From positions 62,001-126,000 of the forward strand of contig WGMB01000010.1 in assembly GCA_016125275.1 (NCBI GenBank): DNA of 64,000 nt, given 5' to 3'. This document shows positions 36,601-59,086 of this stretch, in pieces. This stretch comes from Acidobacteriota bacterium (lineage in GTDB: Bacteria > Acidobacteriota > Terriglobia > Bryobacterales > UBA6623). How positions within the stretch are numbered: the stretch's first letter is position 1; each line of letters begins with the position of its first letter. Both the position numbers and the translations under genes were made by a program. Under the pieces are notes generated by a model. It was not told where the DNA came from. It worked only from the letters and a program-made list of their open reading frames with translations, and did no database searches.

Positions 36601-37845
36601 CTATCGGCCGGTAAACCGCAGGTCCAGGGCGCCCACGCGGGAGGCCGTCACGTTCATCTCGATCTGCCGAATCTGCGGTTGGCTGTTGCCGCTCACCCGC
36701 AGCAGCAGAGTCCCGTTGCCTGCGCCCGGGGCGCTGTTGAGCTGCTCGATCTGCACCTCGACGCGGTCTTCTGCGACCTTGCGCCAAGTCCCGAGGATCG
36801 ACCAGGAGCGGTCGCCGGATAGCTCGAAGCGCGCCCGCCCGCCCTGATCCAGCCGGACCAGGATCTCGCGAACGACCTCCTCCGAGCCGTTGAGCGGCTC
36901 CAGGTAGCCGGTGCCGCGCAGGGTCTGCGAGAGCCCGCTGAGGTCGCCGGAGGTGACGGGCGTCCCGCCGATGGACGGCGGATTGGGTGAGATGATCTGG
37001 CCCTTCTTCGACAGCGGCGGCGGAGCCGGAGCGGTCGGCGTCACGGGCGTGGAGGGCGACCCCGGCTTGGTGAAGTCGCGGTACTCGCCGCGCTGGGTGA
37101 AGTTGAGCTGGAAGGAGCCTTGGTTGGGCGTGCTGCCGTTCAGCTCCATCGTCGCTAGGCGATCGCCGCTGAGCTGGATGCGGCCCGATCCGCTGCCGGC
37201 GCCGGTTCCCAGCACGTCGTTGAGCGTCAGCTCGATGATGCCGCCGTTCTGCCGCCAGCTCCCCTTGAAGCGCAGCTCGGGGGAGTCGGAGAAACTCACG
37301 ATCGCCAGGCCGGTGGTCGTCAGGCTGACCGAAGTCTGCGTCAGGCCCTGGGTGCGGGCGGGCAGGCGCGCCGCCCCCGTACCGGACGCCGTCGCGCTCA
37401 GCTCCGAGATCTGGACATAATTGCCGCCGTAGATCGGCCCGGGACCCCCGCCGCTAGAGGTCCCATCCCAGGTGATGCGGGCGTGGTAGCGGTCTTCCCC
37501 GCCCTTGCTGTCACTGATGCGGAGCTTCAACGTCCAACCGTTGGACAGCGATGGCTCTTCGATCACCACGATGTCGCCACGGCCGTCCATCTTCTTCACG
37601 CTGAGCTGCGAAGGCGCCGCGAACGGCAGCGGGGCGGAGTACGCCGAGCCGTCGTTGCGGGGCGCCTTGGTGCCGCCGGCATCGTAGCGAACCCGATCGC
37701 CCTGAATGTAGAAATCCACGGCGATATCCACGTAGACCCGCAGGTCGATCTGCGGCGTCGAGCTCTGGAACTTCTGGAGGGGAATCTCCTGGGCGGCCAG
37801 CAGCGGAGCCAGGAGGAAGAGACAGACGGGTCCGAGGATTCGCAT
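36601..37845 (-). CDS. Secreted two-domain protein of unknown function
   Basis: 414 residues. Signal peptide (ILGPVCLFLLAPLLAAQ), an N-terminal beta-rich part of about 130 residues (VYVDIAVDFYIQGDRVRYDA), then two similar domains joined by a Pro/Thr/Ser linker (about 268-300). Domain A contains LRFKGSWRQNGGIIELTLND, GSGSGRIQLSGD and a closing MELNGS; domain B contains RARFELSGDRSWSILGTWRK, APGAGNGTLLLRVSG and MNVTASRVGALDLRF. The shared pattern (beta strand, G-x-W-R, then G-x-G-x-G-x-L/I-x-L-S-G) suggests an internal duplication. I do not recognise the family. ATG 37845 gives the signal peptide. Confidence 0.65.
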   Translation of the reverse strand: MRILGPVCLFLLAPLLAAQEIPLQKFQSSTPQIDLRVYVDIAVDFYIQGDRVRYDAGGTKAPRNDGSAYSAPLPFAAPSQLSVKKMDGRGDIVVIEEPSLSNGWTLKLRISDSKGGEDRYHARITWDGTSSGGGPGPIYGGNYVQISELSATASGTGAARLPARTQGLTQTSVSLTTTGLAIVSFSDSPELRFKGSWRQNGGIIELTLNDVLGTGAGSGSGRIQLSGDRLATMELNGSTPNQGSFQLNFTQRGEYRDFTKPGSPSTPVTPTAPAPPPLSKKGQIISPNPPSIGGTPVTSGDLSGLSQTLRGTGYLEPLNGSEEVVREILVRLDQGGRARFELSGDRSWSILGTWRKVAEDRVEVQIEQLNSAPGAGNGTLLLRVSGNSQPQIRQIEMNVTASRVGALDLRFTGR

Positions 37846-37926
37846 CACAGGATTCGGCGGACGATTCCGCTCCCCCTCATTGTGCAGCAAAAGCCGCACT
37901 TCGTTGGACGCAATTGTGCGGGAATC

Positions 37927-38425: not shown

Positions 38426-40213
38426 CTACTTCGCCATGTCCTGTTCCTGGATCGTGGTGGTCCACTCCTCGGTCCAGTCCACGTCAGCGAAGGCGCCGTT
38501 GTAGCGGGCCGTCTGGTCGAAGAAGCCGTCGTCCGGCGGCTGCACCCAGTTGGCGCGGAAGACGGGCGAGCCGAGCATCGGCCGGAAGTCGATGTCGCTG
38601 AACTCGAACGGACGGCGCAGCATCGGGTCGGCCACCATCATGTTCGGCGCCTGGGTGGTGACGTAGGTCAGGGCGCGGTCGTTGACCTGGCCGGCCAAGT
38701 CGTTGGCGGCGCCGCTGAACATGCCGTTCTTCCACATCAGGATGCCGTTGAGCGACAGCTCGCCGGCGTCCAGACGCGCCTGGGTGGCGTCGTCGTTGAT
38801 GTTGATGCCGCCGTCGACCCAGTTCTGGACCACGACGTTGTTGATCGAGCCGCCTGCGCCGCGGCGCAGGTAGATGCCGGCCACGGTGCCTTCATCCACG
38901 CCCTGGTCGGTGATGTCGCCGTCGCCCACGAGCGTGCCGTTGTAGAACGTCGGGCTATTGAGCGGAACCGCGCCGAAGTCGTTCTCGTTGTTGTCCCACT
39001 CGAAGCCGCGGTTGGAGTTGTCGGCGTTGATGATCGCGGCGAAGAACTGCACCCGGCCGGTCCATCCGATCTGCGAGTCGAAGTTGTCGTCGCGGGGGTA
39101 GCTCGACAGCAGGTACTTGGCGTCGTTGTTGCCGCCGAACCACTCGAACGAGTCGTCCAGACCGTAGTGCGCCTGCAGGTGGTCGAGGCTGGTCTGCTTG
39201 CCGCAGCCGGCCCACGTGAAGGCGTTGATCTCGTCGTTGGGCCGCAGCTCGGCGCCGGCGAACTCCAGGCGCACGTAGCTCATCGAGCCGCAGTTGTGCT
39301 CCGGGTCGGTTCCGCCATAGACGGTGTCGTCGCTCGGCGGCAGACCTTCGATGTTACCGGTGCCCGAGGGCCAGTTCACCGGCGCTTGACCCATCATCAC
39401 CACGCCGCCCCAGTCGCCGGCGCGGCGCTGGCCGAACGGTGGCGAGCTGGTCATGATGATCGGGCGCGACCGCGTGCCCTTGGCCTCCAGACGGCCGCTG
39501 TTGGAGACGATGATGGCCGAAGGCGGCTGCGAGCCGGGCTGACCGATGACGAAAGTGCCGGGCTCGATGTTGAGCACGCCGCCCGCGCGAACGATCATCA
39601 GGCCGCTGAGGCGGTAGGCCTTGGTGTTGACCAGGGTGCGGTTGTCGGTCACGTCGCCGGTGATGTCCTCGAAGCCTTCCACGACGCCGACCTTCCAGTA
39701 CGCCGCCTTCACCACGCGCCCGCCGGTGTAGTCGCGCACTTCCACCACCACGGTGTGCATGCCGAGCTCGCTGGGAAGCGTGATGGCCGGGAACATGCCG
39801 CCCGAGCCCACCAGCGTCTGCTTCTCAGCCGACGGCAGCCGAACGATGTTGAAACCCTGCTCCACGGTGTTGCCGAAAATATCCGTCGCCTCGGTGGTGC
39901 CGTTGGGCAGATAGGTCTTCTCGCCGGTCTGGTTGTTCTGGCGATAGGCCACGAGGGTGTAAGGAATCAGATCGCCATTGGGCTTGATGGTCCAGTTCAA
40001 AGACAATTGCTCGCCGGGCTGATAGACATACTTGTCCGACCAGATCCACATGGCGGCGGGGGTTTCCAACTGCTCGAAACCCGAAAGCTCCTTCACTGCG
40101 TCGTTCGGGCTGACCGACGCGAAGCGGAGAGACTGGCCCGAATCGGCGGCCAGCAGGCCGACCGACAGGGCGGCGGTGAGTGTTGCTAATTTTGCGAGCG
40201 TTCGCAGGTGCAT
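38426..40213 (-). CDS. Exported beta-helix surface protein, TonB-receptor partner
   Basis: 595 residues, with a signal peptide (LATLTAALSVGLLAA). The first ~160 residues look like an Ig-like domain (YVYQPGEQLSLNWTIKPNG). The rest has the pattern of a widespread family best known from Bacteroidota and some Proteobacteria: an opening ITGDVTDNRTLVNTKAYRLS, NIEPGTFVIG, GRLEAKGTRSRPIIMTSSPP, RRAGDWGGVVMMGQAPVN, YVRLEFAGAELRPNDEINAF, YGLDDSFEWFGGNNDAKYLL, then SPTFYNGTLVGDGD and SLNGILMWKNGMF. These fit right-handed beta-helix repeats. The gene follows the TonB receptor by 54 bases, an association known for this family, and ends at a terminator. Likely cell-surface binding or processing partner of the receptor; ligand unknown. 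Confidence 0.8.
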   Translation of the reverse strand: MHLRTLAKLATLTAALSVGLLAADSGQSLRFASVSPNDAVKELSGFEQLETPAAMWIWSDKYVYQPGEQLSLNWTIKPNGDLIPYTLVAYRQNNQTGEKTYLPNGTTEATDIFGNTVEQGFNIVRLPSAEKQTLVGSGGMFPAITLPSELGMHTVVVEVRDYTGGRVVKAAYWKVGVVEGFEDITGDVTDNRTLVNTKAYRLSGLMIVRAGGVLNIEPGTFVIGQPGSQPPSAIIVSNSGRLEAKGTRSRPIIMTSSPPFGQRRAGDWGGVVMMGQAPVNWPSGTGNIEGLPPSDDTVYGGTDPEHNCGSMSYVRLEFAGAELRPNDEINAFTWAGCGKQTSLDHLQAHYGLDDSFEWFGGNNDAKYLLSSYPRDDNFDSQIGWTGRVQFFAAIINADNSNRGFEWDNNENDFGAVPLNSPTFYNGTLVGDGDITDQGVDEGTVAGIYLRRGAGGSINNVVVQNWVDGGININDDATQARLDAGELSLNGILMWKNGMFSGAANDLAGQVNDRALTYVTTQAPNMMVADPMLRRPFEFSDIDFRPMLGSPVFRANWVQPPDDGFFDQTARYNGAFADVDWTEEWTTTIQEQDMAK

Positions 40214-40267
40214 GGTTTCTCCTTTCAGGTCTTGGCGGGCGGAAGTCGATCCTGGGTTGGGGGTTTC

Positions 40268-43054
40268 CTAGAACGAGTAGGTGGTGCCGACGCTATAGGT
40301 CCGGCCCAATCGAAAACTGCGCTGGGTGATGTCTGCCTGGATCCACTGGTAGTGGTTGTCGGTCAGGTTCTCCGCGGTGAACCGCATGTTCCAGCGGCCG
40401 TCTTCACGGAAGCTGTACTGATAGACGAAATCCAGGAAGGTATTGCCCTGCTGGTAGACATCCGGCAGGCCGAGCGCACCGACATCGGTGATGCGCCGCG
40501 AAACGTGGTTGACGTAGAAGCGAGCGTTACTGCGCCAGCGAGGCTTGAGCCACTCGGTGATGAGGTTGTACACCACCTTCGACTGGCCCATCATGGGGCG
40601 CTGGAGCGACGTGAGCAGGTTGCGCTGGGCTTCGCCGAGCTGCACCTGGGAGTCGACCAGGGTCAGGTTCGCCTGAACGTTGAACTGCGCCAGCTTCGGG
40701 TTCAGCACCGCCAGGCTGCGGCGTAGCTCGAACTCGACGCCCTGGTTGGTGCCCCCGGCGGCGTTGATGTAGCTCTGCCGCAAGTCTCCGGTCGTCGGCT
40801 GAATGGTGACCTCGATCGGGTTCGTGAAGTCCTTGTAGAAGTAGCTGGCCGCCACGAGCTGGCTGCCCCCGAAGAAGTGCTCCCAGCGCGCGTCGAAGTT
40901 CTTGATCTTGGCGCGAACCAGGTTCGGGTTACCGGCGAAGCTGTAGCCGCCGAGCACGTTCACGAAATCGAACGGAGACAGCTCGCGGAAGTCCGGGCGC
41001 GAGAGCGTCTCGCTATAGCCGAACCGCAGGTTCGACTTCGGGCTGAGCGCGTAGATCACGTTGACGCCCGGCAGGGGATCGCGATTCGCCAGCGTGGAGA
41101 CCGCCGGCACCGCTCCGGGGATCAGCGGGTCGAGCGTCTCGACGTCGATGACCGCGTCTTCCACGCGGACGCCGCCCACAACGCGCCACTTGGCCCCGAA
41201 CGACAGGTCCACCATGGCGTAGCCGGCGTAAACGTCCATCGCCGCCGTGTACTGGTCGGTGCCGCGGGTGTTCTCGCGAATCTGGAACAGATCCGGCGTG
41301 ATGTTCTCCGGCGCGAACAGCTCGTCGCTCGGCGCCGTCAAGTCGAGTTGCGACAGCCGCAGCGGAACGAAGCGGAAGCGGCGGGCGGCGAAGTCGCGGT
41401 CGCGGAAGGTTCCGCGGAAGCCGACTTCGACCTTGCCGCTGAAGCCCTTGCCGTAGAACGGCGTCGCCCAACTGGCCTGCGGCTCGATGATGTGGTCGGT
41501 CAGGTAGTTGTAGAAGCGAGTGCCCGACTGCGGCGAAGCCAAGTACGGCGTGGTGCCGTCCGGGCGCAGCGTGCGCACCACCTCGCGGAAGTCCGGCTCG
41601 TCGCGCTTGCTGGTCGAGTAGGTGAGCTGCCAGGTGAACAGGCTGTTGTGCAGCCGGTTGAAGGAGTGCTGCCCTTCCAGACCGGTGGAGACCAGCGAGC
41701 GCTCAACCCAGCGCAGGCGCTGGTCTTGGATGACGGTGTCGATGCCGCCGTTGAGGCCGCTGAATGTCCGCGCCTCCTTGTCGGTCTCGCGTGTCAGGGT
41801 GTTGCGGAAGATCAGCTTGTGCGACGGGTTGATCGAGTACGCCAGGTTCATCACGCCGCCCAACCGCACCGACTCGGAGTCGGCCACGTAGTCGGGGTAG
41901 TCGGTGAAGATGGCTGCGTTGCCGCCGCCGGTGTTGACCAGGTAGCGCAGCAGCTCGGACTGGCGCTGGAGCTTGTTGGTGAAGGTGATCGCGCCGACCA
42001 CGCCCAGCTTGCCCCAGGTGTTGCCGCCCGCAATCGAGTAGCCCACGGTGGGCCGCACGCTGTCCTGCGGCACGGGCTGCCAGTTGTTGGGGAACGCGCG
42101 GCCGATCTCTTGGAACTCTTGGGGCGTGAAGGCGCCCGGGAAGACGCGCCCGTCCTGCGGCACCAACGACGGCAGGTCGCGGGTTCCGTCATCGAAGCCG
42201 AAGAAGTCGCGCGAGCCGCCGCGATAGGTGTCGCCCGGCTTGAACGTCGTCCGGGAGTTGAAACCGATGGTCGTGCCGACCGTGAAGATCTTCTGCCGCG
42301 GGAACTCGACGGTCTCGAGCTTCACCACTCCGCCGGCGAACTCGCCAGGCATGTCCGGCGTGTAGGTCTTGAGAACCTTCACGTCGTTGAGCAAGCTGGC
42401 CGGAAACAGGTCCAGCGGAACCACGCGGCGCTCGGGCTCGGTCGTCGGCAGCATCGCGTTGTTGAGCATCGTGCTGCTGTAGCGCTCGCCCAGACCGCGG
42501 ACGTAGACGTAGCCGCCTTCCACCACCGAGACGCCCGTGACCTTCTCGACCGCGCCGGCAGCGTCCGAAGCTGTCGAGTTCTTGATCTCTTCGTGCGAGA
42601 TGCCGTCGCTCACCACGGGGGCGAGCTTGCGTTCTGCGATGAGCGCCTCGGCCGTCGCCGTCGACGCTTCCACGGTGGCGACGACCTCCACGGTCGTCAC
42701 CTCGGTCTCGGTGGATAACACCACGCTGCCGTCGGCGATTTCGCCGGCCGTCACGACGATGCCTTCCACCTTGGCCGGCAGGAACTTCTCCGCCGTGACG
42801 GTGACCGAATAGGTCCCCGGCGCCAGATTGAAGCGATACGTGCCGTCCAGGTCCGTCCGCGAATTGTTGTCCGTCTGGCCGTCCAGCGATACCTGGGCCC
42901 CGCGAATCGGCTCCCCCGTATTGGCGTCGAAGACGAAGCCGAGGATGGAGCCTTGTCCGGCGGGCTGCCCGGAGGCTTGGTCCGGCAGCAAGAACCCCGC
43001 GCACAGCAGCACAAGCGCCGCGAAAGGGGTTCGCAATGAAATAGGTCGAATCAT
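40268..43054 (-). CDS. TonB-dependent receptor
   Basis: 928-residue outer-membrane receptor. Signal peptide (FAALVLLCAGFLLPDQASG); carboxypeptidase-regulatory-like domain (GSILGFVFDANTGEPIRGAQ, LDGTYRFNLAPGTYSVTVTA); plug with the hallmark SDGISHEEIKNSTASDAAGA, VYVRGLGERYSSTMLNNAML and PASLLNDVKVLKTYTPDMPG, EFAGGVVKLET; then the barrel, ending in Phe (GRTYSVGTTYSF) as outer-membrane barrels do. The plug motifs place it in the family whose gene usually adjoins the beta-helix protein. Ligand unknown. It lies between the TIGR03437 gene (57 bases) and the beta-helix gene (54 bases). Confidence 0.92.
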   Translation of the reverse strand: MIRPISLRTPFAALVLLCAGFLLPDQASGQPAGQGSILGFVFDANTGEPIRGAQVSLDGQTDNNSRTDLDGTYRFNLAPGTYSVTVTAEKFLPAKVEGIVVTAGEIADGSVVLSTETEVTTVEVVATVEASTATAEALIAERKLAPVVSDGISHEEIKNSTASDAAGAVEKVTGVSVVEGGYVYVRGLGERYSSTMLNNAMLPTTEPERRVVPLDLFPASLLNDVKVLKTYTPDMPGEFAGGVVKLETVEFPRQKIFTVGTTIGFNSRTTFKPGDTYRGGSRDFFGFDDGTRDLPSLVPQDGRVFPGAFTPQEFQEIGRAFPNNWQPVPQDSVRPTVGYSIAGGNTWGKLGVVGAITFTNKLQRQSELLRYLVNTGGGNAAIFTDYPDYVADSESVRLGGVMNLAYSINPSHKLIFRNTLTRETDKEARTFSGLNGGIDTVIQDQRLRWVERSLVSTGLEGQHSFNRLHNSLFTWQLTYSTSKRDEPDFREVVRTLRPDGTTPYLASPQSGTRFYNYLTDHIIEPQASWATPFYGKGFSGKVEVGFRGTFRDRDFAARRFRFVPLRLSQLDLTAPSDELFAPENITPDLFQIRENTRGTDQYTAAMDVYAGYAMVDLSFGAKWRVVGGVRVEDAVIDVETLDPLIPGAVPAVSTLANRDPLPGVNVIYALSPKSNLRFGYSETLSRPDFRELSPFDFVNVLGGYSFAGNPNLVRAKIKNFDARWEHFFGGSQLVAASYFYKDFTNPIEVTIQPTTGDLRQSYINAAGGTNQGVEFELRRSLAVLNPKLAQFNVQANLTLVDSQVQLGEAQRNLLTSLQRPMMGQSKVVYNLITEWLKPRWRSNARFYVNHVSRRITDVGALGLPDVYQQGNTFLDFVYQYSFREDGRWNMRFTAENLTDNHYQWIQADITQRSFRLGRTYSVGTTYSF

Positions 43055-43111
43055 ATACAGCTTGGTTCTCGAGAGATCGGTCGGGCGCCGGTTCCTTGGG
43101 TCCGGGGGCGC

Positions 43112-43897
43112 TTAGCGAGCCACCCAGAAGGAGACCGCGTTGGTCTTCAGGCCGGAGACTTCGGCCTGCAGGGTCACCTGGCCGTCGACGAACGTCACAT
43201 CGGGAACCGTGACGTTGAGCTGCCAGGCGTTGACCAGGGTCGGGGCCAAACCGCTGAACAGGACTTCGGCTTCGGCCACCGAGACGTAGACCGTCGTGTC
43301 CGACGAGGTGTTGATCAGGCGGTCGCTGGGGGCCGGCGCGCCGTCGTCGGGCAGCTCGGAGAAGTCCGCGCCGATGCCGTAGGCGACGATCACTTCACCC
43401 GGCGCGGCCGGATTTTGCTCGCTGTTGAGCGTGCCGTCCTGGTTGAGGATGGCGCCCGGCTTGGCGACGTCGCCCGGGTTGATCGACAGCAGGCCGGGGC
43501 TGATCGGGAAGACCTGCAGCGAGCCTTCATAGATGTTCATGCCCGAGACCGTGATGCGCAGCGTCATGCGGCCTTCCGGCGTGCCCTTGGGAACCAGGAA
43601 GTTGATCTGCGTGGGGCCGACGTAGCTCATCGGAGCCGCCGCGTCGTTGACGAATACCTGCACGCCTCCGAGCGTGGTCGGGAACGGAACCGCGTCGGCA
43701 AAGGAGGCCGTGGTCACGCCCATCGAGGCGAAGTCGCCGAACGAGGTCGCCCAGCAACCCGGCGCCAACGGGAACTGCGCGCTGAACGAGGCGGCATTGG
43801 TCGTCGCAACCTGCGTGAGTTGCGCGCTCAACGGGAGCCCGAGGGCGAGGAAGGCCAAGATGGAAATCGAGATACGCAAAGCGAGGTTCTTTTTCAT
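43112..43897 (-). CDS. Secreted TIGR03437-type protein
   Basis: 261 residues with signal peptide (ISISILAFLALGLPLSAQ). The mature protein is the TIGR03437 type expanded in Solibacter and relatives: TTNAASFSAQFPLAPGCWAT, PTTLGGVQVFVNDAAAPMSY, VGPTQINFLVPKGTPEGRMT and PAAPGEVIVAYGIGADF followed by a final VTLQAEVSGLKTNAVSFWV. It reads as beta-sandwich surface modules; function unknown. It is the first gene of the TonB receptor / beta-helix group. ATG 43897 is chosen for the signal peptide. No other TIGR03437 protein appears in the window. Confidence 0.88.
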   Translation of the reverse strand: MKKNLALRISISILAFLALGLPLSAQLTQVATTNAASFSAQFPLAPGCWATSFGDFASMGVTTASFADAVPFPTTLGGVQVFVNDAAAPMSYVGPTQINFLVPKGTPEGRMTLRITVSGMNIYEGSLQVFPISPGLLSINPGDVAKPGAILNQDGTLNSEQNPAAPGEVIVAYGIGADFSELPDDGAPAPSDRLINTSSDTTVYVSVAEAEVLFSGLAPTLVNAWQLNVTVPDVTFVDGQVTLQAEVSGLKTNAVSFWVAR

Positions 43898-44056
43898 GGA
43901 ATTCACCGGGTGAGAGCGCGCCAATTCGCGAGTTTGCTACTTCGGCGCCGAATAGGGTTGGAGCGCGAAAGAGAGCGCTCCCGCCATACCCTGCGGCCAG
44001 CTTGGAAACTCCAAGCTACCGACCAGCGAGTTGGGTTTCTGTAACGACTGGTTGAA

Positions 44057-44090
44057 GCTTTGGTTAAGATCCAAAGCGTTCGCGTTAAGG
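44057..44090. promoter_or_regulatory. Palindrome and repeated GTTAAG upstream of the TonB cassette
   Basis: GCTTTGG (44057-44063) and CCAAAGC (44071-44077) are perfect inverted repeats with a seven-base loop. GTTAAG occurs at 44063 and again at 44084, 21 bases apart (two helical turns), a layout used by OmpR/PhoB-type regulators; such a regulator is encoded next door. The site is 160 bases before the TIGR03437 start. Confidence 0.4.
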
Positions 44091-44121
44091 GTCGAGGGAG
44101 CCTTTGCCTAGGGAGAAGGTC

Positions 44122-44808
44122 TTAGGCGCCGCGGTCGTCGAAGGTGTATCCGACGCCGCGCATGGAGCGAATCCAGCGGGGGTTTGCAGGGTCTTTTTCG
44201 AGCTTATTCCGCAATCGAACGATGTAGGCGTCGACGGTCCGCTCGAGCACGTCGCGGCGGTCGCCCCACACCGCGTCGAGCAGCCGCTCGCGCCGAAACA
44301 CCTGCCCCGGGTGCCGCATCAGGTGCTCGAGCAAGCGGAACTCCGTGGCGGTCAGCGCCACCGGATCGCCATCGAGCTTCACGGTGTATTGGCTGCGGTG
44401 CAGCTCCAGCGGCCCCGAGCGGAGCACGTCGCCGTCTTCGGGCTTGGCCCGCAGGTGGATCTTCACGCGGGCCGCCAGCTCCCGCACCGAGAACGGCTTG
44501 ACGATGTAGTCGTTGCCCCCGATCTCGAGCCCCAGCACGCGGTCGGTCTCGCTGCCCAGCGCCGTTAGGAAGATCACCGGAGTCTGCCGCAAACCCTGGT
44601 CAGCCCGCACCAACCGGCAAATTTCGATGCCGTCGCCTTCGGGCAGCAGCACGTCCAGGACGACCAAGTCCGGCTTGGCGGAGCGCAGGAAGGGAAGCGC
44701 CCCCGCAGCAGTGCGCTGACCGACGACCTCGTGGCCCTGCTGCCGGAGCGTGTGTTCGACGAGCTCGTAGAGATCCCTGTCGTCTTCGATGAGCGCGACT
44801 TTGGCCAC
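44122..44808 (-). CDS. OmpR/PhoB-type response regulator
   Basis: 228 residues: receiver domain with D52 as phosphoacceptor (VVLDVLLPEGDG), acidic pair E8-D9-D10, and K in YIVKPFSVREL; C-terminal winged-helix domain with LTATEFRLLEHLMRHPG, VFRRERLLDAVWG, and ERTVDAYIVRLRNKLEKDP. No histidine kinase gene is adjacent, so it is an orphan here. It lies upstream of the TonB cassette on the same strand, and the 224-base gap between them carries possible operator repeats, so it may regulate the cassette (inference). Confidence 0.92.
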   Translation of the reverse strand: MAKVALIEDDRDLYELVEHTLRQQGHEVVGQRTAAGALPFLRSAKPDLVVLDVLLPEGDGIEICRLVRADQGLRQTPVIFLTALGSETDRVLGLEIGGNDYIVKPFSVRELAARVKIHLRAKPEDGDVLRSGPLELHRSQYTVKLDGDPVALTATEFRLLEHLMRHPGQVFRRERLLDAVWGDRRDVLERTVDAYIVRLRNKLEKDPANPRWIRSMRGVGYTFDDRGA

Positions 44809-44936
44809 TCGCTTCCTTGGTTACTGTAGCGAGAATAAGCAGACGCCAGCGTGAAGACTCGATGAATTGCGGCGACGGAGCCGGAGCCGCTACGGTCGGT
44901 GGGCCGCCGGTTGGGAGCCGCCCGCGCCCCCCGTGG

Positions 44937-44942
44937 TATTCT
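44937..44942 (+). promoter_or_regulatory. TATTCT -10 box before the AIM24 gene
   Basis: TATTCT ten bases before the ATG at 44953, no Shine-Dalgarno between; supports the start that places the zinc ribbon at the N-terminus. Confidence 0.5.
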
Positions 44943-44952
44943 GGCGGGCGTC

Positions 44953-45834
44953 ATGCCATTTTGCAGCAATTGTGGTTCCCAACTCCCCGAAGGGTCTGCC
45001 TTCTGCAGCAACTGCGGCGCGCGGCAAGGCGCGGGCGGCTCGGTCACCCCGACTTCCGTCCCGGTCGTGAGCTCCGAACCGTTGGACTATGACATCGAAG
45101 GCGACAACCTGCAGATCATCCGCGTCCGGCTCAAGCCCGGTCAGGAGCTGATCGCGGAAGCGGGCAAGATGGTCTACAAGACGCCCAGCGTCGAGTGGCA
45201 GACAAAGATGACCGGCGAGGGGATCGGCCAGAAGCTCTTCGGCGCCCTCAAGCGCAAGCTCACCGGCGAATCGCTGTTCCTCACGCACTTCCGCCTCAGC
45301 GGCGCCAAGGGCGAGGTCGGCTTTGCGGGAGACTTCCCCGGACGCATCCAGGCCTTCGAGCTCGGAGCCGGGCAAGCCGTACTCGTCCAGCGCGACGGCT
45401 TTGTGGCCGCCGAGGCCTCGGTCACGCTCGACATCGCCTTTACCAAGAAGATCGGCGCCGGGCTGTTTGGCGGCGAAGGCTTCATCCTGCAGAAGCTCAC
45501 CGGCCCGGGGACGGCCTTCATTCACGGCGGCGGCGACTTCGTCGAGTTCACCTTGGGCTCGGGCGAGTCGTTGCAGATCGACACCGGTTGCGTGGTGGCC
45601 TTCGACGAGTCGGTCAGCTACGACGTCCAGTTCGCCGGCGGCATCGCCTCGAGCATCTTTGGCGGCGAGGGCCTGTTCCTGGCCACTTTGACCGGCCCGG
45701 GGCGGGCGATCATCCAAACCATGACCTTGTCGAAGCTGCGCCGGGAGCTGGGCGGCGGTGTGGGCGCGAAGACCGGCGGCGGCGAGGCCCACGGCCTGGA
45801 GACGCTCACCAACTTCTTCGGCAGCAGCGACTGA
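44953..45834 (+). CDS. Zinc-ribbon AIM24/TIGR00266-family protein
   Basis: 293 residues. Zinc ribbon at the N-terminus (C4-S-N-C7, C18-S-N-C21), a Ser/Thr/Pro linker and an AIM24 domain (about 45-270): LRLKPGQELIAEAGKMVYK (as RVRLKPGQELIAEAGKMVY), LFLTHFRLSGAKGEVGFAG, FVAAEASVTLDIAFTKKIGA, FGGEGFILQKLTGPGTAFIHG (in parts) and VAFDESVSYDVQFAGGIAS. The family forms beta-sandwich trimers; bacterial function unsettled. Converges with the SET gene 13 bases downstream. Confidence 0.88.
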   Translation: MPFCSNCGSQLPEGSAFCSNCGARQGAGGSVTPTSVPVVSSEPLDYDIEGDNLQIIRVRLKPGQELIAEAGKMVYKTPSVEWQTKMTGEGIGQKLFGALKRKLTGESLFLTHFRLSGAKGEVGFAGDFPGRIQAFELGAGQAVLVQRDGFVAAEASVTLDIAFTKKIGAGLFGGEGFILQKLTGPGTAFIHGGGDFVEFTLGSGESLQIDTGCVVAFDESVSYDVQFAGGIASSIFGGEGLFLATLTGPGRAIIQTMTLSKLRRELGGGVGAKTGGGEAHGLETLTNFFGSSD

Positions 45835-45846: not shown

Positions 45847-46194
45847 CTAATCCACCCCTTCCCACTCGTCGCCGTAGTGGAAGGTGATCTCGTCTCCGAC
45901 GCGGATGGTGCGTAGGGCGTAGAGCTCGGGTCCGTCGAAACCCGCATTGGGCTGCGAGCTGTGATTCAGGTAGCGGAGCTCGTTTTGGCCGTCGATGCCG
46001 CGCCAGACGCCGTCTCCGTCATCCACCCAGAGGACGTAGCGGGCGTCGGTCATCGTCGCCGGCCCCTCGTAGGAGCCGATGAAGGCCCCCTTGCGAATCT
46101 GTCGGCGGGCGAAGCAGCCCTTGCCGTGAATCGGGCTCGGCTTGGACTCGACCCACTGCGAGAGGTCGGGGCGCTGGCGGACTGATTGGGGCAC
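45847..46194 (-). CDS. Small SET-domain protein
   Basis: 115 residues, essentially one minimal SET domain: KPSPIHGKGCFARRQIRKG, FIGSYEGP, the AdoMet/pseudoknot motif ELRYLNHSSQPNAGF, and GDEITFHYGDEW with the catalytic-site Tyr. SET proteins are lysine methyltransferases; bacterial targets are largely unknown. The start is not certain: GTG 46194 is preferred because a TAAATT box lies eight bases before it; the frame is open further upstream but only by overlapping ribF. Last gene of the DUF1844-MBL-ribF group. Confidence 0.72.
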   Translation of the reverse strand: MPQSVRQRPDLSQWVESKPSPIHGKGCFARRQIRKGAFIGSYEGPATMTDARYVLWVDDGDGVWRGIDGQNELRYLNHSSQPNAGFDGPELYALRTIRVGDEITFHYGDEWEGVD

Positions 46195-46202
46195 GGTTTC
46201 CC

Positions 46203-46208
46203 AATTTA
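46203..46208 (-). promoter_or_regulatory. TAAATT box before the SET gene
   Basis: TAAATT on the minus strand, eight bases before GTG 46194, in the 50-base gap after ribF. Confidence 0.35.
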
Positions 46209-46244
46209 GCAGGCCGTCGGGCGCCCTTAGCGTGTCGGCGTCGT

Positions 46245-52300: not shown

Positions 52301-53214
52301 GACTCGTCGCCGGTGAGATGCGCGTAGATCCGGTCCAGCTCATCCTGCGAGCTGTATTCGATCTCGATCTTGCCGCTTTGCCTGCCGCGCTGGATGAGGC
52401 GCACCCGCGTCCCCAGAGCACGCTCCAGCGTCTCGACGGCCGCTTCCACATTGGGATCGACAGGCTTGGGCTCGGGTTCCGGTACGGGTTGGAGCCGCTT
52501 GCGGACAAGCTCTTCGACCTGCCGCACGGAGAGACCTCGACGCAGAACTTCGTCAGCCACTTCCACCTGATCCGTTTCCTCGGACAGCGCCAGGAGCGCC
52601 CGGGCATGCCCCATCTGCAACTGTCCCTGCGCCACCAGCCTTTGGACCGACGCAGGCAGCTTGAGCAGCCGCAAGAGATTCGTAATGGTGGTCCGATTCT
52701 TTCCGGTGCGCTGGGCCAGCTCCTCGTGGCTGAGGCTGAGCTCGTGGGCCATCCGCTGCAGGGCCTGGGCCACTTCGATTGAGTTCAGATCCTCGCGCTG
52801 GATGTTCTCGATCAGAGCGATCTCCAGGACGCGGTCGTCCGCGATGTCGCGCACGACCGCCGGAACCTCCATGAGTCCGGCCGCCTGCGCGGCCCGCATG
52901 CGCCGCTCACCGGCGATCAGGAGGTACCGGTCACCGGCCGGGCGAACGATCAGGGGCTGGATCACGCCGTCGATGCGGATCGACTGCGCTAACTCCGCGA
53001 TGGACTCCGCCGAGAACGTCTGGCGGGGCTGATCCGGATTCGCATCGATCAGTGCGAGCGAAAGCTGCCGGATGGTCTCGACGGACGGGTCGACCTCGAT
53101 CGGCGACGGACCGGGCGCAGCGGCCGGCGCGGGCTTCTTTGTGGCCAGAAGGGCGTCGAGCCCGCGACCAAGGGCTTTCCTCTTCTGGGAGAGGGCGTTG
53201 GGTTCCTTCTTCAT
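52297..53214 (-). CDS. parB: Chromosome partition protein ParB
   Basis: 305 residues. N-terminal nuclease-like/CTPase domain with IRIDGVIQPLIVRPAGDRYL (20) and the CTP motif GERRMRAAQAAG, IENIQREDLNSIEVAQAL, then the helix-turn-helix region QRTGKNRTTITNLLRLLKLP, and a C-terminal dimerisation part (KIEIEYSSQDELDRIYAHL). Binds the two parS sites found 0.8-0.9 kb away, near rsmG. Follows parA by 12 bases on the same strand. Confidence 0.95.
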   Translation of the reverse strand: MKKEPNALSQKRKALGRGLDALLATKKPAPAAAPGPSPIEVDPSVETIRQLSLALIDANPDQPRQTFSAESIAELAQSIRIDGVIQPLIVRPAGDRYLLIAGERRMRAAQAAGLMEVPAVVRDIADDRVLEIALIENIQREDLNSIEVAQALQRMAHELSLSHEELAQRTGKNRTTITNLLRLLKLPASVQRLVAQGQLQMGHARALLALSEETDQVEVADEVLRRGLSVRQVEELVRKRLQPVPEPEPKPVDPNVEAAVETLERALGTRVRLIQRGRQSGKIEIEYSSQDELDRIYAHLTGDES

Positions 53215-53226
53215 GGCGTCCCTGCT

Positions 53227-54015
53227 CTAGGCGCGCCCTTGGTGGGCAGTGCGCGATCCGGACCGCGCCAGAATTTCGCGCGCAAGGTTCAAGTAGCTCT
53301 CGGCGCCGCGTGAACGCAGGTCATACTGCATCACGGGCTTCCCGTGGCTCGGCGCCTCCGCCAGCCGGACGTTGCGGGGAATGACGGTCTGGAAGACGTC
53401 CTCTTGGAAGAACTCGCGGAGATCGGCTTCCACCTGGCGGGTCAGGGTCATGCGTTCGTCGAACATCGTCAGCAGCACTCCCTCGATGGAGAGGCCGGGA
53501 TTGAGGCTCTGCTGAATGCTGTCCACCGTGTCCATCAGCGCGGAGATTCCTTCCAAGGCGAAATACTCGCATTGAATCGGGATCAAGACCGCGTCGGCGG
53601 CGGTCAGGGCGTTGATTGTCAGCAGATCGAGCGCCGGCGGACAGTCGAGCATGATGAAGTCATAGCGGTCTCGCAGCTTGGCCAACTGCTTCTTGAGCCG
53701 CTGTTCCCGGCCGTCGGCATCCACGAGCTCCACATTCGCGCCCGCGAGGTGACGGCTCGAAGGAATCAGGTGGAGCGAATCGAAGGCGGTCTCCAGGATG
53801 ACGGCGTCCGGTTCGGCCCCCATCAGCAGATCGTAGACTCCCGGACGTTCCGCGTCCTGCGGAAACCCGAGCCCGGAGGTGGAATTGGCTTGCGGGTCGC
53901 AGTCTACAACGAGAACGCGACAATCCGCGGCGGCGAGTGAAGCCGAGAGATTGATGGCGGTTGTCGTCTTTCCGACGCCGCCTTTCTGGTTGGCAATGGC
54001 GATGATGCGACCCAA
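53227..54015 (-). CDS. parA: Chromosome partition ATPase ParA (Soj)
   Basis: 262 residues. Deviant Walker A KGGVGKTT at 11-18 just after the start, VVDCDPQANSTSGLG, and Walker B FIMLDCPPALDLLTINALTA (20). Start is TTG 54015, giving MGRIIAIANQKGGVGK, the normal family N-terminus. The frame remains open upstream through the parS region, but no ATG/GTG fits before the conserved block. Moves ParB-parS complexes. Confidence 0.94.
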   Translation of the reverse strand: MGRIIAIANQKGGVGKTTTAINLSASLAAADCRVLVVDCDPQANSTSGLGFPQDAERPGVYDLLMGAEPDAVILETAFDSLHLIPSSRHLAGANVELVDADGREQRLKKQLAKLRDRYDFIMLDCPPALDLLTINALTAADAVLIPIQCEYFALEGISALMDTVDSIQQSLNPGLSIEGVLLTMFDERMTLTRQVEADLREFFQEDVFQTVIPRNVRLAEAPSHGKPVMQYDLRSRGAESYLNLAREILARSGSRTAHQGRA

Positions 54016-54080
54016 GGCGGCCCCCTGCGTCGGAATGAATGTCCGAATCGAGCCCCACTGTAGCACAGGGCGCGCAAGAG

Positions 54081-54094
54081 GTTTCACGTGGAAC
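54081..54094. promoter_or_regulatory. parS centromere site 1
   Basis: GTTTCACGTGGAAC, one mismatch from the palindromic consensus core GTTTCACGTGAAAC. It lies 66 bases upstream of parA. Confidence 0.88.
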
Positions 54095-54125
54095 ATTTCG
54101 CGCGGGCCTCGCCACGGAACCCGAC

Positions 54126-54139
54126 GTTTCACGTGGAAC
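54126..54139. promoter_or_regulatory. parS centromere site 2, overlapping the rsmG stop
   Basis: A second GTTTCACGTGGAAC 45 bases from site 1. The TGA stop of rsmG on the minus strand (54131-54129) is made of bases inside this site. Confidence 0.88.
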
Positions 54140-54743
54140 GTCGGCGACCCACCACCAGGAAACGCGATTCCCCGCCCCGCAACTCCACGCTCTCGTCCCA
54201 GGCCCACTCCGCCCGGGCACGCGCGGCCTCGGCCCCCTCTTCGCTCACCCAAAGCCCCACGTTTCGACCGATCCGCGCCAAATCACCCAGCGCACCCGCC
54301 ACGCTCACGGCCCGCATCCACACCCAGTCCGCCGACTCGCGGAACATCTCCGCCCGCACATCCCGAACCCGCACATTCCCCCATTCTCGCGACGCCTCCC
54401 GCAAGAAAACCGCTTTCTTGCCAACAGGCTCCAGCAGTGTCACCTGCTTGTCCGGGCAGGCAGCCGCCAGAGCCAAGCCCGGAAAGCCCGCGCCGGAACC
54501 GACATCCACCGCTGAACGCCACTCATCCGTTGCCGCAGCAAGAAAAGCCAGCGATTCCCCGAAGTGCCGACGCGCCGCCTCTTCCGGTTCAGCAACCCGC
54601 GTCAGATTCATCCGCCGGTTCCACTGCGTCAACAGACCGTAGTGCCCGACCATCCGCTCTACGGCCGCCTCATCCAGGGTTAAGCCCAAAGCCTGAATCT
54701 CCCCCGCCAACGCCGCTCGGAACCGGTCCTCAACGCTCGGCAC
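54129..54743 (-). CDS. rsmG: 16S rRNA m7G527 methyltransferase RsmG (GidB)
   Basis: 204 residues. SAM-binding motif [20 protein letters not shown] (20) and the usual [15 protein letters not shown] and [20 protein letters not shown]. Methylates G527 of 16S rRNA. Overlaps the mnmG 3' end by 14 bases, the classical gidA-gidB arrangement. Ends inside a parS site. Confidence 0.94.
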
Positions 54744-56634
54744 GCGCCGCAGTCTCCAAGTGCATGTTCAGAATCGACACGGCCGCCGGCGTCACGCCCG
54801 GAATCCGGCCTGCCTGCGCCAGCGTCTCCGGGCGCACCCGCTCCATCTTCTCCACCATCTCGCGCGACAGTCCCGGAAGACCGGCGAACTGGAAGTCCGA
54901 CGGTATCCGCCGCCTCTCCGCCTTCGCCAGCCGAGCCACATGGCGCTTCTGTTGCTCGTAGTAGCCCGCGTACTTCACCTCGGTCTCGACCGCTTTCCAG
55001 TCCGACGCCCGCAACTCCCCACGGGTCCCCTCGTCCATCAGCGGGATGACATCGTCGATCTCGACCTCCGGACTCCGCAAATAGCCCGCCAACGTCTGCC
55101 GTTGCTCCGGAACCCGGCCCAACGCGCCGAACAACCGCACGGCCTTCCCATCCTCCGGGGATGGCCGAAACTCCTCCAAGAACCGCCGCACCCGGCTCAA
55201 GCCCTCCCGCCGAGTCTCGAACCTCCGCCAGTCCGCATCGCCCACCAGTCCGGCCCCCCGCCCCGTCGGCGTGAGCCGCTGGTCCGCGTTGTCGATCCGC
55301 AGATGCAGGCGAAACTCCGCCCGCGAGGTGAACATCCGGTACGGCTCGTCCGTCCCCTTCGTCACCAGGTCATCGATCAAGATCCCGATGTACGCCTCGC
55401 TCCGCTCCAGGCGCACCGCCTCCCTACCCTGCACAAGGCGGGCCGCGTTGATCCCGGCCATCAAACCCTGCGCGGCAGCCTCCTCATACCCGGTCGTGCC
55501 GTTGATCTGACCTGCCAGGAACAGCCCCCGCACCCTCTTCGTCTCGAGCGAATGATCCAACTCGGTCGCGTCCACGGAGTCGTACTCGATCGCGTACCCC
55601 GGCCGAATCATCTCCGCCTCCTCCAGGCCCGGAATCGAAGCGACCATCGCAGTCTGTACGTCGATCGGCATGCTGGTCGATAGGCCGTTCACATACACCT
55701 CGTTCGTATCCAGCCCCTCCGGCTCCAGAAAGATCTGGTGGCGCTCTTTGTCGGCGAACTTGACGATCTTGTCCTCGATCGACGGGCAGTACCGCGGTCC
55801 GATCCCTTCAATCTGCCCACTATAGAGCGGGGACCGACTCACACTGTCCCGCAAGATCTTGTGCGTCTGTTCCGTGGTGTAGCCGATATGGCATTGAATC
55901 TGCTCGCGTTCGATCCTCTCCGTCCGGAACGAGAACGGCGTCGGCTCGGCGTCGCCCGGCTGCGGTTCGAACCACTCCCACCGGATCGTGCGGCCATCCA
56001 GCCGCGGCGGCGTGCCGGTCTTGAGCCGACCGCACCGAAAGCCAAGGCTCCGCAGCCGCTCCCCCAGCGGGATCGACGCTGGCTCCCCGCTCCGGCCCGC
56101 CGGATAGCGCGCCTCGCCAATGTGCACCAGCCCGTTCAAGAAAGTCCCCGTGGTCACTACCGCCGCCTGGCACTCGAGCACCCGCCCATCCATCAGGCGA
56201 ACGCCGCGCAGCGTGCGCTCCGCCCCGGGGGACGACTCCAGCACGAAGTCCACCACCTCGGCCTGCTTGATCGTCAGATTCGGCTCCCGTTCCAGCAGCC
56301 GCCGCATCTCCACGCGGTAGAGCTTCTTGTCGCACTGCGCTCGGGGAGACCACACCGCCGGGCCCCGCCGCGTATTGAGCAGCCGAAACTGGATGCCGAC
56401 CGCGTCGGTCACCACGCCCATCAAACCGCCCAGCGCGTCGATCTCCCGCACCAAGTGCCCCTTCGCGATACCGCCGACCGCCGGATTGCACGACATCTGC
56501 GCAATCAAATCCAAATTGAGCGTCGCAAGGGCCGTCCGCAGCCCCATCCTGGCCGCCGCCACCGCCGCCTCACAGCCGGCGTGTCCCGCGCCGACCACCA
56601 CCACGTCAAACCGTTCGTTCGCCTGTATCCGCAT
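54730..56634 (-). CDS. mnmG: tRNA uridine-5-carboxymethylaminomethyl modification enzyme MnmG (GidA)
   Basis: 634 residues. FAD motif [20 protein letters not shown] (20), [20 protein letters not shown] (20), [20 protein letters not shown] (20), [20 protein letters not shown] (20) and a C-terminal helical MnmE-binding region. Modifies wobble U34 with MnmE. The start at 56634 ([19 protein letters not shown]) agrees with homologues. Confidence 0.95.
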
Positions 56635-56646
56635 CGCTGGAAGCCA

Positions 56647-56673
56647 TTGACCCCGGGCTCACCTGTTATTCTA
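56647..56673. promoter_or_regulatory. Divergent promoter region of purD and mnmG
   Basis: TTGACC (56647-56652), and TG-T-TATTCTA (56664-56673). TATTCT is an extended -10 for purD; read on the other strand the same bases give TAGAAT for mnmG, i.e. a near-symmetric -10 that could serve both. Confidence 0.4.
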
Positions 56674-56732
56674 GGCTCTCTACCGGTCGTCGGGGCCCAG
56701 CGCCGCCCGAGCGGTCCGGCGCAGTCAACTCC

Positions 56733-57998
56733 ATGAAAGCATTCGTTCTAGGGGCCGGGGGACGCGAACACGCGATCGCCTGGCGCCTGTCGCAGTCTCC
56801 CTCCATCGAGCGCGTCTACGCCGCCCCGGGAAACGCCGGCCTGGCCTTCGACCTCTCGTGCATCCCGGCGGACCTCACCGCCCCCCAGGAGTTGGCCGCC
56901 TTGGCCGAAACCCTCGACGTCGATTTCACCATCGTCGGCCCGGAAGCGCCCCTCGTCGCCGGCGTCGTCGACGCTTTCGAGGCCCGCGGCCTCCCCATCG
57001 TCGGCCCCTGCCGCTTCGCCGCTCAGCTCGAAGGCAGCAAGGTCTTCGCCAAGGACTTCTTCCAGAAGTACGGCATCCCCACCGCCCGTTCCCGCACCGT
57101 CGACTCGACGGATCAGCTCGCAGCCGCCGTCGACGAGATCGGCCCCGCCGTGGCCCTCAAGGCCGACGGCCTCGCCGCCGGCAAAGGCGTGATCCTGGCC
57201 CATAGCCGCGCCGAAGCCCTCGACGCCGGCCGCCTGCTCCTCTCGGGAGAGGCTGTGGGCGAGGCCGGGCGTCGGATTCTCGTGGAAGAGCTGCTCGTCG
57301 GGCGCGAAGTCAGCTTCATCGTGCTCACCGACGGCAAGCGACTCTTCGAGCTGCGACCCACCCAGGACCACAAGGCCGCCTATGACGGAGACCAGGGGCC
57401 TAATACCGGCGGGATGGGCGCCTACTGCGACGACTCCATCCTTGATCCGGACCTGCGCCAAGCTATCGTCGACACCATCATCCAGCCGGCGCTCGACGGC
57501 ATGAAGTCCGAGGGCTCGGTCTTTCGGGGCTTCCTCTATGCCGGCCTCATGATCACCGCCGACGGTCCCAAGACGCTGGAATTCAATGTGCGACTTGGCG
57601 ATCCCGAGACTCAGCCGTTGCTCTATCGTCTCGACGGCGACTTCGGAGAGCTGATGGCGTCGGCCGCCCGCCGCTCGCTCGACGCCTCGGTCGTCTCCTG
57701 GAAGCCAGGCGCTACGACCTGTGTCGTGATGGCCTCGGAAGGCTATCCCGGCGCCTACCCCAAAGGTCGCCCCATCAGCGGCATCGGCGACGCCGAGGCA
57801 ACCGGCGCCAAGGTCTTTCACGCCGGCACGGCCTTCCGCAAAGGCCGCCTCGCCACCTCGGGAGGCCGCGTGCTCGGAGTCACCGCCGGCGGCGACACCC
57901 TCGAGGCCTCCCTGCAAGCCGCCTACGCCGCGGTCGAGTGCATCTCCTTCGAGGGCGCACACTACCGGCGCGACATCGGCCGCCGCCCGCGCGCCTAG
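56733..57998 (+). CDS. purD: Phosphoribosylamine-glycine ligase
   Basis: 421 residues, normal length for GARS. FVLGAGGREHAIAWRLSQSP (20) at the N-terminus, ATP-grasp blocks ALKADGLAAGKGVILAHS and FRGFLYAGLMITADGPKTLE (20), then FNVRLGDPETQPLL, which carries the metal Glu/Asn. Second step of purine synthesis. It is transcribed divergently from mnmG. No other pur genes in the window. Confidence 0.96.
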   Translation: MKAFVLGAGGREHAIAWRLSQSPSIERVYAAPGNAGLAFDLSCIPADLTAPQELAALAETLDVDFTIVGPEAPLVAGVVDAFEARGLPIVGPCRFAAQLEGSKVFAKDFFQKYGIPTARSRTVDSTDQLAAAVDEIGPAVALKADGLAAGKGVILAHSRAEALDAGRLLLSGEAVGEAGRRILVEELLVGREVSFIVLTDGKRLFELRPTQDHKAAYDGDQGPNTGGMGAYCDDSILDPDLRQAIVDTIIQPALDGMKSEGSVFRGFLYAGLMITADGPKTLEFNVRLGDPETQPLLYRLDGDFGELMASAARRSLDASVVSWKPGATTCVVMASEGYPGAYPKGRPISGIGDAEATGAKVFHAGTAFRKGRLATSGGRVLGVTAGGDTLEASLQAAYAAVECISFEGAHYRRDIGRRPRA

Positions 57999-58033
57999 GG
58001 CCCGCCCGCTCACCAAGCAGAGGAACCAACACG

Positions 58034-59050
58034 ATGAAAGTAGGACTAATCGGCACCGGAGCCATTTCCCACAAACACGGCGACAGCTATCGCGAGCTCG
58101 GCTACGAGATCGTCGCCTGTTCCAATCGCGGCGAGCAGAAGGGACGGGAGTTCGCGGCCAAGTACGGCGCGGAGTTCCTGCCCGACTGGCGAGACCTAGT
58201 GGCCCGCGCAGACGTCGGCTACGTCGACGTCTGCACCTTCCCCGACTCCCACCTCGAAATCGTGCGCGAGTGCGCCGCCCGCGGCAAGAGCGTCCTGCTG
58301 CAAAAGCCCATGGACCTGACCCTCGACAACTGTCGAGAGATGATCCAACTCGCCGAGAAAGCCGACATTCGCCTCGGCGTCGTCAGCCAGCACCGCTTCG
58401 ACGACTCCACGATCTTCCTCAAGAAGGCCATCGACGACGGCCGCCTCGGGACGATCCTACAAGCCGACGGCTACGTCAAGTGGCACCGGCCCCAGCCCTA
58501 CTACGATCGTCCCGGCAAGGGGACCTGGGCGGTCGAGGGCGGCGGCGCCCTCATCAACCAGGGCATCCACACGGTCGACGTGCTCATGTACCTGGCCGGC
58601 CGCGTGGCGCAGGTGGCGGCCCAGTGGCAGCTCGCCGCCGCCCACCGCATGGAAGCCGAGGACGTCGTCAACGCGCTGGTGCGCTACCAGAGCGGAGCGA
58701 CCGGCGTGATTCAGGCCGCCACGGCCTTCTGGCCCGGCTTTACCGAGCGCATCGAGATCCACGGGACCAAGGGCTCAGCCATCATCACCGGCGACCGGCT
58801 CACCACCTGGGCCGTCGAGGGCGATGACGGAGCCGACGCGCCCGTCGCCCAAGGCTCTGACGACTCCGGCGCTTCCGACCCGATGGCCATCCCCATCGAG
58901 AACCTCAAGCGCGGTTTCGCCGATTTCGCCCAGGCCGTCGAGAGCGGTCAGGCCCCCCTCATCACGGGCGAAGAGGGCTATCACGCCCTGGCTATCGTGC
59001 TCGGCGTCTATGAGGCCGCGCGCTCCGGTCAGGTTGTTAGCCTGACCTAA
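58034..59050 (+). CDS. Gfo/Idh/MocA-family oxidoreductase
   Basis: 338 residues. NAD(P) motif VGLIGTGAISHKHGDSY, then VDVCTFPDSHLEIVRECAAR (20), the family's E-K-P motif as LLQKPMDL, RFDDSTIFLKKAIDDGRLG, and the catalytic-loop His in NQGIHTVDVLMYLAG. The family oxidises or epimerises sugars, inositols and related polyols. ATG 58034 follows purD by 35 bases. Its sugar-type role fits the AKR and enolase genes downstream. Confidence 0.9.
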   Translation: MKVGLIGTGAISHKHGDSYRELGYEIVACSNRGEQKGREFAAKYGAEFLPDWRDLVARADVGYVDVCTFPDSHLEIVRECAARGKSVLLQKPMDLTLDNCREMIQLAEKADIRLGVVSQHRFDDSTIFLKKAIDDGRLGTILQADGYVKWHRPQPYYDRPGKGTWAVEGGGALINQGIHTVDVLMYLAGRVAQVAAQWQLAAAHRMEAEDVVNALVRYQSGATGVIQAATAFWPGFTERIEIHGTKGSAIITGDRLTTWAVEGDDGADAPVAQGSDDSGASDPMAIPIENLKRGFADFAQAVESGQAPLITGEEGYHALAIVLGVYEAARSGQVVSLT

Positions 59051-59077
59051 ATTTTGCTAGGGCTTTCTTCTCGTCGC

Positions 59078-59086
59078 TGTTATACT
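59078..59086 (+). promoter_or_regulatory. Extended -10 before the PRC-barrel gene
   Basis: TG-T-TATACT at 59078-59086, an extended -10; the leader of about 40 bases holds AGGAG (59119-59123) ahead of the ATG at 59133. Confidence 0.45.

Follow-up and report, generated by a model that had tools for sequence, protein, structure and literature searches.

Which signal controls a four-gene cassette of an Acidobacteriota bacterium that sets a response regulator beside a TonB-dependent receptor, and which compound do its products handle? The cassette lies at positions 38426-44808 of the 64,000-nucleotide stretch analysed here, which we call the window (contig WGMB01000010.1; G000:C20:62001-126000 in our numbering, where G000 is the source genome of 7.55 Mb in 20 contigs). 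The four genes share the minus strand, and their order from 44808 downwards (PhoB-type response regulator, TIGR03437 protein, TonB receptor, right-handed beta-helix protein) agrees with a preliminary description made from the DNA letters alone. That description spoke of an uptake and sensing cassette, which is a fair account; both the regulator and a repeat in front of the operon matter. The ligand, which it called unknown, is no longer wholly open: a Pho-box-like operator, the neighbouring genes and published homologues point to phosphorus, and we consider it highly probable that the cassette is a phosphate-starvation operon.

The likelier ATG start of the TIGR03437 gene is at 43897 (frame 43112-43924), which leaves a gap of 224 base pairs (bp) to the regulator gene. 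The receptor gene follows after 57 bp and the helix gene after a further 54 bp, distances that are compatible with a single operon starting at the TIGR03437 gene. In front of it lies the Pho-box-like operator, three 7-mers at 11-bp spacing (44041-44069, minus strand; TCTTAAC-CAAA-GCTTCAA-CCAG-TCGTTAC) with a matrix score of 12.1. The preliminary description had noted repeated GTTAAG and a palindrome in this gap. GTTAAG is indeed present at 44063 and 44084, and two copies within 30 bp were obtained in 0 of 60 shuffles, but across the window the hexamer is no commoner than expected (3 copies, 5.6 expected), and we do not count its frequency as evidence. The three-unit tandem repeat has one copy as its first unit; the other copy begins 21 bp upstream and is an extra CTTAAC half-site (44084-44089, minus strand) one base out of register. 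As for the palindrome, the gap contains two inverted repeats: CTTTGG-N7-CCAAAG at 44058-44076, which overlaps the box, and a perfect 8-bp repeat, AGCTTGGA-GTT-TCCAAGCT, at 43999-44017 (minus strand), which has no T run behind it and could be an RNA hairpin.

The matrix consists of one 7-mer used three times at 11-bp spacing and was trained from random seeds on 23 regions of relatives that lie upstream of pstS or of the frame preceding it; the rows L230_3835, L239_4954 and both L242 starts were removed before the fit, and L241 had no called frames. The spacing was set by us after the operon upstreams had been read by eye, and the training upstreams were also read before the fit, so that the letters alone, and not the spacing, were learned. 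The resulting consensus is CTGTAAC, which we take to resemble the Pho boxes of other bacteria; L227 and L228 contain no good site (scores 5.3 and 2.1). The window box outscores every one of the 140 control upstreams (shuffle p 0.01) and is the sole site scoring at least 9.5 on either strand of the window, compared with a mean of 1.4 such sites, and 0.25 at 12.1, in shuffled 64-kb windows, where sites were counted anywhere rather than in the gap. When 21 upstreams of TonB operons, none of them used in training, were scored against the 140 controls from the same loci, 20 fell inside the top 5% of controls, 16 exceeded all controls and all 21 had a shuffle p of 0.043 or less; the exception to the 5% line is G033 (L044), with p 0.057 versus controls. 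Mean best scores are 14.4 for the TonB upstreams and -1.4 for the controls. Boxes are also present at all five pair-linked regulators of relatives and at 11 related regulators that were fetched with their neighbourhoods. The matrix hence predicts a tandem PhoB-type box of 11-bp units upstream of the operon, as in a Pho regulon. A strict search for three CTTAACC units found none in the window, as the motif is degenerate and a trained matrix is needed. A simple box pattern was dropped: its hits included pstS in G007 and one unexplained position in the source genome (C10:453286, beside a frame of 436 residues), and it missed the window, showing that simple patterns give false or unexplained hits. 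Another box pattern was composed after its two sites had been seen, and we treat its uniqueness only as supportive.

Elsewhere in the source genome, the matrix was applied to stretches that had been picked for phoB or phosphate genes and not for the box. Sites were found at phoB on C14 (20.4), which lies beside a PhoR-like kinase gene, at a Porin_O_P (OprP-type) gene (20.5) and phoU (12.9) on C20, and at a PhoU_div-PiT pair on C6 (15.8); one further site, C20:247892 (13.9), is unexplained. The genome contains no PstC over the cut-off and no PstS by TIGR02136. Across 41 genomes of f3, the larger sister family, an orthologue of the helix protein is present in 14 of 21 genomes without PstC and in 5 of 20 with it (Fisher p 0.012, ignoring kinship), and the greater frequency of the pair where PstC is missing hints at an alternative phosphate strategy.

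The regulator (44122-44808, minus strand) has the Pfam domains Response_reg and Trans_reg_C, that is, a receiver and a winged-helix domain, and an alignment with pst-linked PhoBs shows the acceptor-site residues to be present. PhoB is its best NCBIfam model and ranks first for none of the 7 further full-length OmpR-type regulators found in the genome. Relatives at E 1e-50 or better occur in 21 of the 22 genomes searched; the 16 f3 genomes have a single copy each with 53-57% identity, and G024 adds a second copy at 45%. The orthologous regulator closes a pst-phoU-kinase-phoB run in G019 and G058 and adjoins pst in G045. A tree built from 32 regulators joins that of the window with the TonB-linked regulator of G006 (91/85) and puts this pair as sister to a clade (98/90) holding the f3 copies, pst-linked ones included, and the other PhoB copy of the source genome, C14:1206020; the joint clade has support of 97/95. 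On this placement, the window regulator appears to be a second PhoB copy that has diverged while staying with the operon. The C14:1206020 copy comes after a PnpS/PhoR-like kinase. At L081 (C14, 9424-12712), such a kinase lies between two PhoB-type regulators, the second of which alone has a box, and a similar regulator-kinase-regulator run is seen in G024. The genes flanking the window regulator encode an AIM24-family and the TIGR03437 protein, so it is an orphan with no adjoining kinase, as had been described.

The helix protein was searched for in 61 genomes, the source genome and 60 relatives, and found in 35, of which 21, the window included, have it at 49% identity or more. The TonB receptor gene lies directly upstream of the helix gene on the same strand in 20 of 20 orthologous loci of relatives. 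A TIGR03437 protein precedes the receptor in 10 of these 20 loci, and PhoB itself is a usual neighbour; the view that the TIGR03437 protein replaces the usual neighbours of the pair is hence not upheld. A related regulator adjoins the pair in five of the 20 loci, in G052, G055, G057 and G059 behind a kinase gene and in G007 inverted and downstream. Of the four kinases, the three that were scanned resemble PnpS/PhoR, with scores below cut-offs. G052, G055 and G006 share the four-gene order of the window. The last of these genomes belongs to the window's own family and encodes the regulator, a TIGR03437 protein (60% identity), a receptor (51%) and a helix protein (38%), with an unrelated frame of 467 residues between the first two and with boxes before both of them. 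Both the association with a regulator and the gene order proposed from the window are accordingly seen in relatives. At loci L041, L043, L044, L046 and L048 of genus g19, arsenic-type genes (ArsR-, ArsC- and ArsM-like) were recognised by eye near the helix side and EutN/CcmL-like shell proteins opposite.

The pair is also kept across phyla. A scan of named genomes, from which the best 80 of at least 575 loci were taken, many of them on short contigs, gave loci from Bacteroidota, Gemmatimonadota, Planctomycetota, Latescibacterota, Proteobacteria and others. Of the 80, 69 have a called helix frame and 64 a receptor, and the two genes are adjacent on one strand in 56 (53 TonB first, 3 helix first), which bears out the statement that these families occur side by side. 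A regulator with PhoB as best model lies inside the fetched stretch in 18 of the 80 loci. Within the regulator cluster, 20 of 21 members were scanned (L158:12962 was left out), giving 19 PhoB-best proteins and one RprY, and the PhoB cut-off was passed in four loci, L093, L095, L154 and L156. PstC over the cut-off is encoded in L119, which also has a Porin_O_P gene, while PstC/PstA-like permeases are recognised by similarity only in L155 and L160 (generic Pfam models); PiT passes the Pfam cut-off in L130 and L141, a PitA match in L143 is below its cut-off, and the OprP-cluster gene of L145 has no Pfam match. At least one PhoB-, Pst-, PiT- or OprP-type gene is thus present, as a raw count, in 23 of the 80 loci. 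In Flavobacterium fontis (L132), a kinase-cluster gene, a PhoB-best regulator, the receptor and the helix gene lie in a row, and the helix protein is 33% identical to that of the window (E 1e-52). A lipoprotein-like family of about 190 residues follows the helix gene in 9 of the 80 loci (e.g. L153 9375-9947); one member was scanned and has no Pfam or NCBIfam match.

Published work links such pairs with phosphate depletion. The Flavobacterium johnsoniae phoBR operon (PUSIV) encodes PhoR (Fjoh_0543), PhoB (Fjoh_0544), a TonB-dependent transporter (Fjoh_0545) and the lipoprotein FII (Fjoh_0546), which carries a pectin-lyase-type fold entry (PMC8115612). Upon phosphate depletion, the table lists values of 8.0 for Fjoh_0545 and 9.9 for Fjoh_0546, the text referring to log2 fold change, and FII is 31-36% identical to a Caulobacter low-phosphate lipoprotein (PMC8115612). 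In Caulobacter, the lipoprotein ElpS (CC0170), encoded beside the TonB receptor CC0171, is made under phosphate starvation and accompanies higher extracellular alkaline phosphatase activity, and the ElpS/receptor pair co-occurs in genomes according to the authors (PMC2996285). TonB receptors are part of the Caulobacter PhoB regulon (PMC11208175). One of the papers that combine Acidobacteria, the Pho regulon and TonB concerns lanthanides (PMC10875860). In the literature searched, outside which most subscription papers lie, we found no publication on this pair in Acidobacteria among the papers listed, judged by title and the opening of the abstract, none joining a TonB-dependent receptor, phosphate starvation and a beta-helix, and no mention of TIGR03437. 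On sequence kinship, the helix protein of the window is a relative of Flavobacterium FII and, via FII, of ElpS; this kinship is drawn through the F. fontis protein of L132.

What might the helix protein (38426-40213, minus strand) do? It is without a match in Pfam or NCBIfam at E 0.01, it has homologues in several phyla, and its predicted model (pLDDT 88) has a strand-rich N-terminal part ahead of a right-handed beta-helix that spans about residues 178-531; most distant hits do not extend to the part before about residue 180. Foldseek against PDB gave a single match under 0.001 with a poor superposition, and VIA-align was used on those chains instead; the helix profile found nothing up to E 1 among the sequences of solved structures. 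The acidic residues D353, D354, E357, D375, D376, D379, E405 and D407 are invariant in 15 aligned helix proteins and 99-100% kept in 69 distant rows (trimmed alignment, numbering 5 lower). As D353, D354 and E357 fall within one of two search peptide patterns, conservation is partly by construction; the other five lie outside. The conserved residues suggest a metal or ligand site. Tentatively, and with clear reservation, we hypothesize that the protein is a metal-dependent surface phosphoesterase or phosphate-ester binder built on this acidic constellation, forming with the receptor a phosphorus counterpart of SusCD, and that its own PhoB copy lets induction of the operon differ from that of the rest of the Pho regulon. 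Helix-domain matches, two each, were also observed in open frames of 4,339-6,827 residues (G014:C161, G014:C187, G015:C85 and G015:C186), giant proteins with repeated ElpS-like helices.

Several observations weigh against a phosphate-starvation operon. The PhoB score of the window regulator (219 bits) is under the curated cut-off of 296, as is that of the pair-linked regulator of G052 (235 bits), and in 15 of the 20 orthologous loci there is no such regulator in the fetched stretch. The window box is weaker than most boxes of relatives, and a site as good occurs somewhere in 20% of shuffled 64-kb windows. At other spacings of 8-15 bp, the TonB upstreams still score significantly higher than controls (0.9-5.0 versus -2.3 to -0.3; p 1e-7 to 3e-3), so the contrast is partly one of base composition. 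For Caulobacter, CC0171 is reported to be constitutive, an argument against joint induction in that case, and ElpS was still produced after deletion of CC0171 (PMC2996285). The regulator itself is a long branch in its tree (0.96), has no adjoining kinase and, in contrast to the regulators of relatives, no box found by the matrix in its own upstream region (p 0.27). These three traits, together with its position outside the main PhoB clade beside the TonB-linked regulator of G006, are what one would see if the orphan had diverged to serve a separate signal and target, leaving control of the operon to the other PhoB alone or to the two copies together. As its acceptor-site and DNA-binding motifs align with those of pst-linked PhoBs and G006 keeps the gene order with its two boxes, we regard this as a possibility that is rather doubtful; it would change the wiring and not the phosphate link.

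Other readings question that link or the history of the genes. The best structural matches of the helix model are alginate epimerases, pectate and alginate lyases and tailspikes (AlgE4 module Z 22.9 over 277 residues at 3.5 A, Pel9A 21.4, AlgG 21.1), and glycan-related ligands have been proposed for FII (PMC8115612), so the protein could be a polysaccharide lyase, epimerase or hydrolase and the receptor an importer of oligosaccharides with no phosphate tie. However, the matches are 8-14% identical, their fold serves many functions and does not by itself reveal that of this protein, no Pfam or NCBIfam enzyme model matches it, and the Pho box and the PhoB, Pst, PiT or OprP neighbours speak against this reading; carbohydrate uptake of this kind is unlikely. 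A phosphorylated glycan as ligand would reconcile the carbohydrate and phosphate readings. Iron is the classic cargo of TonB receptors, and the receptor weakly matches a heme-receptor model (56 bits, cut-off 317), which could make it a metal or siderophore receptor and a chance neighbour of a PhoB-like gene. We give this very little credence, given that we recognised no further metal gene next to the pair in the window, that the box is common to pst, PiT and porin promoters, and that the F. johnsoniae receptor is reported among those induced by phosphate depletion only (PMC8115612). The preliminary description also considered a horizontally acquired pair combined with a lineage-specific surface protein. 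The orthologue is patchy, being present in 19 of 41 f3 genomes, and in quick trees of 21 genomes G052 and G055, the latter on a long branch, differ in position between the rpoB and operon trees; some discordance is left within the sister family, and exchange or replacement within the order is possible. In the same trees, however, the window and G007, of the same family, are sisters for rpoB (99), TonB (99) and helix (98), the gene trees thus following rpoB in this lineage, which shows no such exchange, and the cassette stretch has the base composition of the window (64-67% G+C); recent acquisition is accordingly very improbable here.

For the phosphate-starvation operon that we favour, a route can be proposed. 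Under low phosphate, a PhoB-type regulator, either the orphan copy or the one next to the PhoR-like kinase on C14 or both, would act, probably after phosphorylation by that kinase. A PhoB copy would bind the 11-bp tandem repeat at 44041-44069 and switch on the TIGR03437-TonB-helix operon. The helix protein, predicted to be at the cell surface, would bind or release a phosphorus-containing ligand, and the receptor would move the phosphorus compound across the outer membrane. For the inner-membrane step, the genome has a PiT transporter that may serve; Pst was not found.

The TIGR03437 protein (43112-43897, open frame from 43924, minus strand) is a secreted IPT/TIG-type protein (NCBIfam 162.5 bits, cut-off 29.05; Pfam TIG). 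Since it is optional, being missing in 10 of the 20 orthologous loci, and since its domain has 100 matches in the genome, 99 of them over the cut-off, its role may be generic. The receptor (40268-43054, minus strand) has a CarboxypepD_reg-like N-terminal domain, a plug and a barrel, all over Pfam cut-offs, and scores 29 bits with the SusC/RagA model (cut-off 368). Its profile matched only carboxypeptidase-D and scaffoldin domains among solved structures (1e-5), and its alignment contains many invariant arginines. In the surroundings, the AIM24-family protein (44899-45834, plus strand; Pfam) has a zinc-ribbon N-terminus and is divergent from the regulator, a small SET-domain-like protein was recognised by eye at about 45847-46240 (minus strand; SPIHGKGCFARRQI...NHSSQPNA) within a longer listed open frame, and a secreted-looking protein of 432 residues at 36601-37899 (minus strand) has no Pfam or NCBIfam match. 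GC skew is clearly negative (to -0.24) over about 53000-64000 of the window and near zero elsewhere.

Soils are often phosphorus-poor, and Acidobacteria are common in soils. The analysis proposes a testable function for a multi-phylum receptor-helix pair, one member of which, the helix protein, had no match in Pfam or NCBIfam, and it places the pair in an acidobacterial Pho regulon with a defined, predicted operator.

Compared with known systems, the cassette resembles PUSIV of F. johnsoniae in that a PhoB gene adjoins those for a TonB receptor and a beta-helix-type surface protein. It differs in having no kinase gene at the locus, in the addition of a TIGR03437 protein and in its helix protein, which carries an additional N-terminal part and has a signal region that lacks a cysteine. 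Kinship to an FII-type protein (L132) and the adjacent TonB receptor are traits shared with the ElpS/FII family, whereas the absence of a cysteine within the first 28 residues, as read from the alignment, is at odds with its lipoprotein anchor. By its published description, ElpS/CC0171 is similar in placing a surface protein with a link to phosphate starvation beside a TonB receptor; in contrast to the window, ElpS is a lipoprotein encoded beside type II secretion genes, and its receptor is reported to be constitutive. By analogy, TonB-linked uptake with a surface partner is shared with PusCD/SusCD, although here the partner is a beta-helix protein and no SusD model was found among the four cassette proteins (Pfam, NCBIfam). 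The Pst-Pho regulon of the same order has the same type of box and related PhoB/PhoR genes, but Pst is an inner-membrane transporter of inorganic phosphate, and its components PstC and PstS are those not found in the window's genome by the models used. The window pair is hence an acidobacterial relative of the FII and ElpS systems with local additions and not an unknown system, and what is locally distinct is the diverged second PhoB copy held at the operon and the TIGR03437 protein within it.

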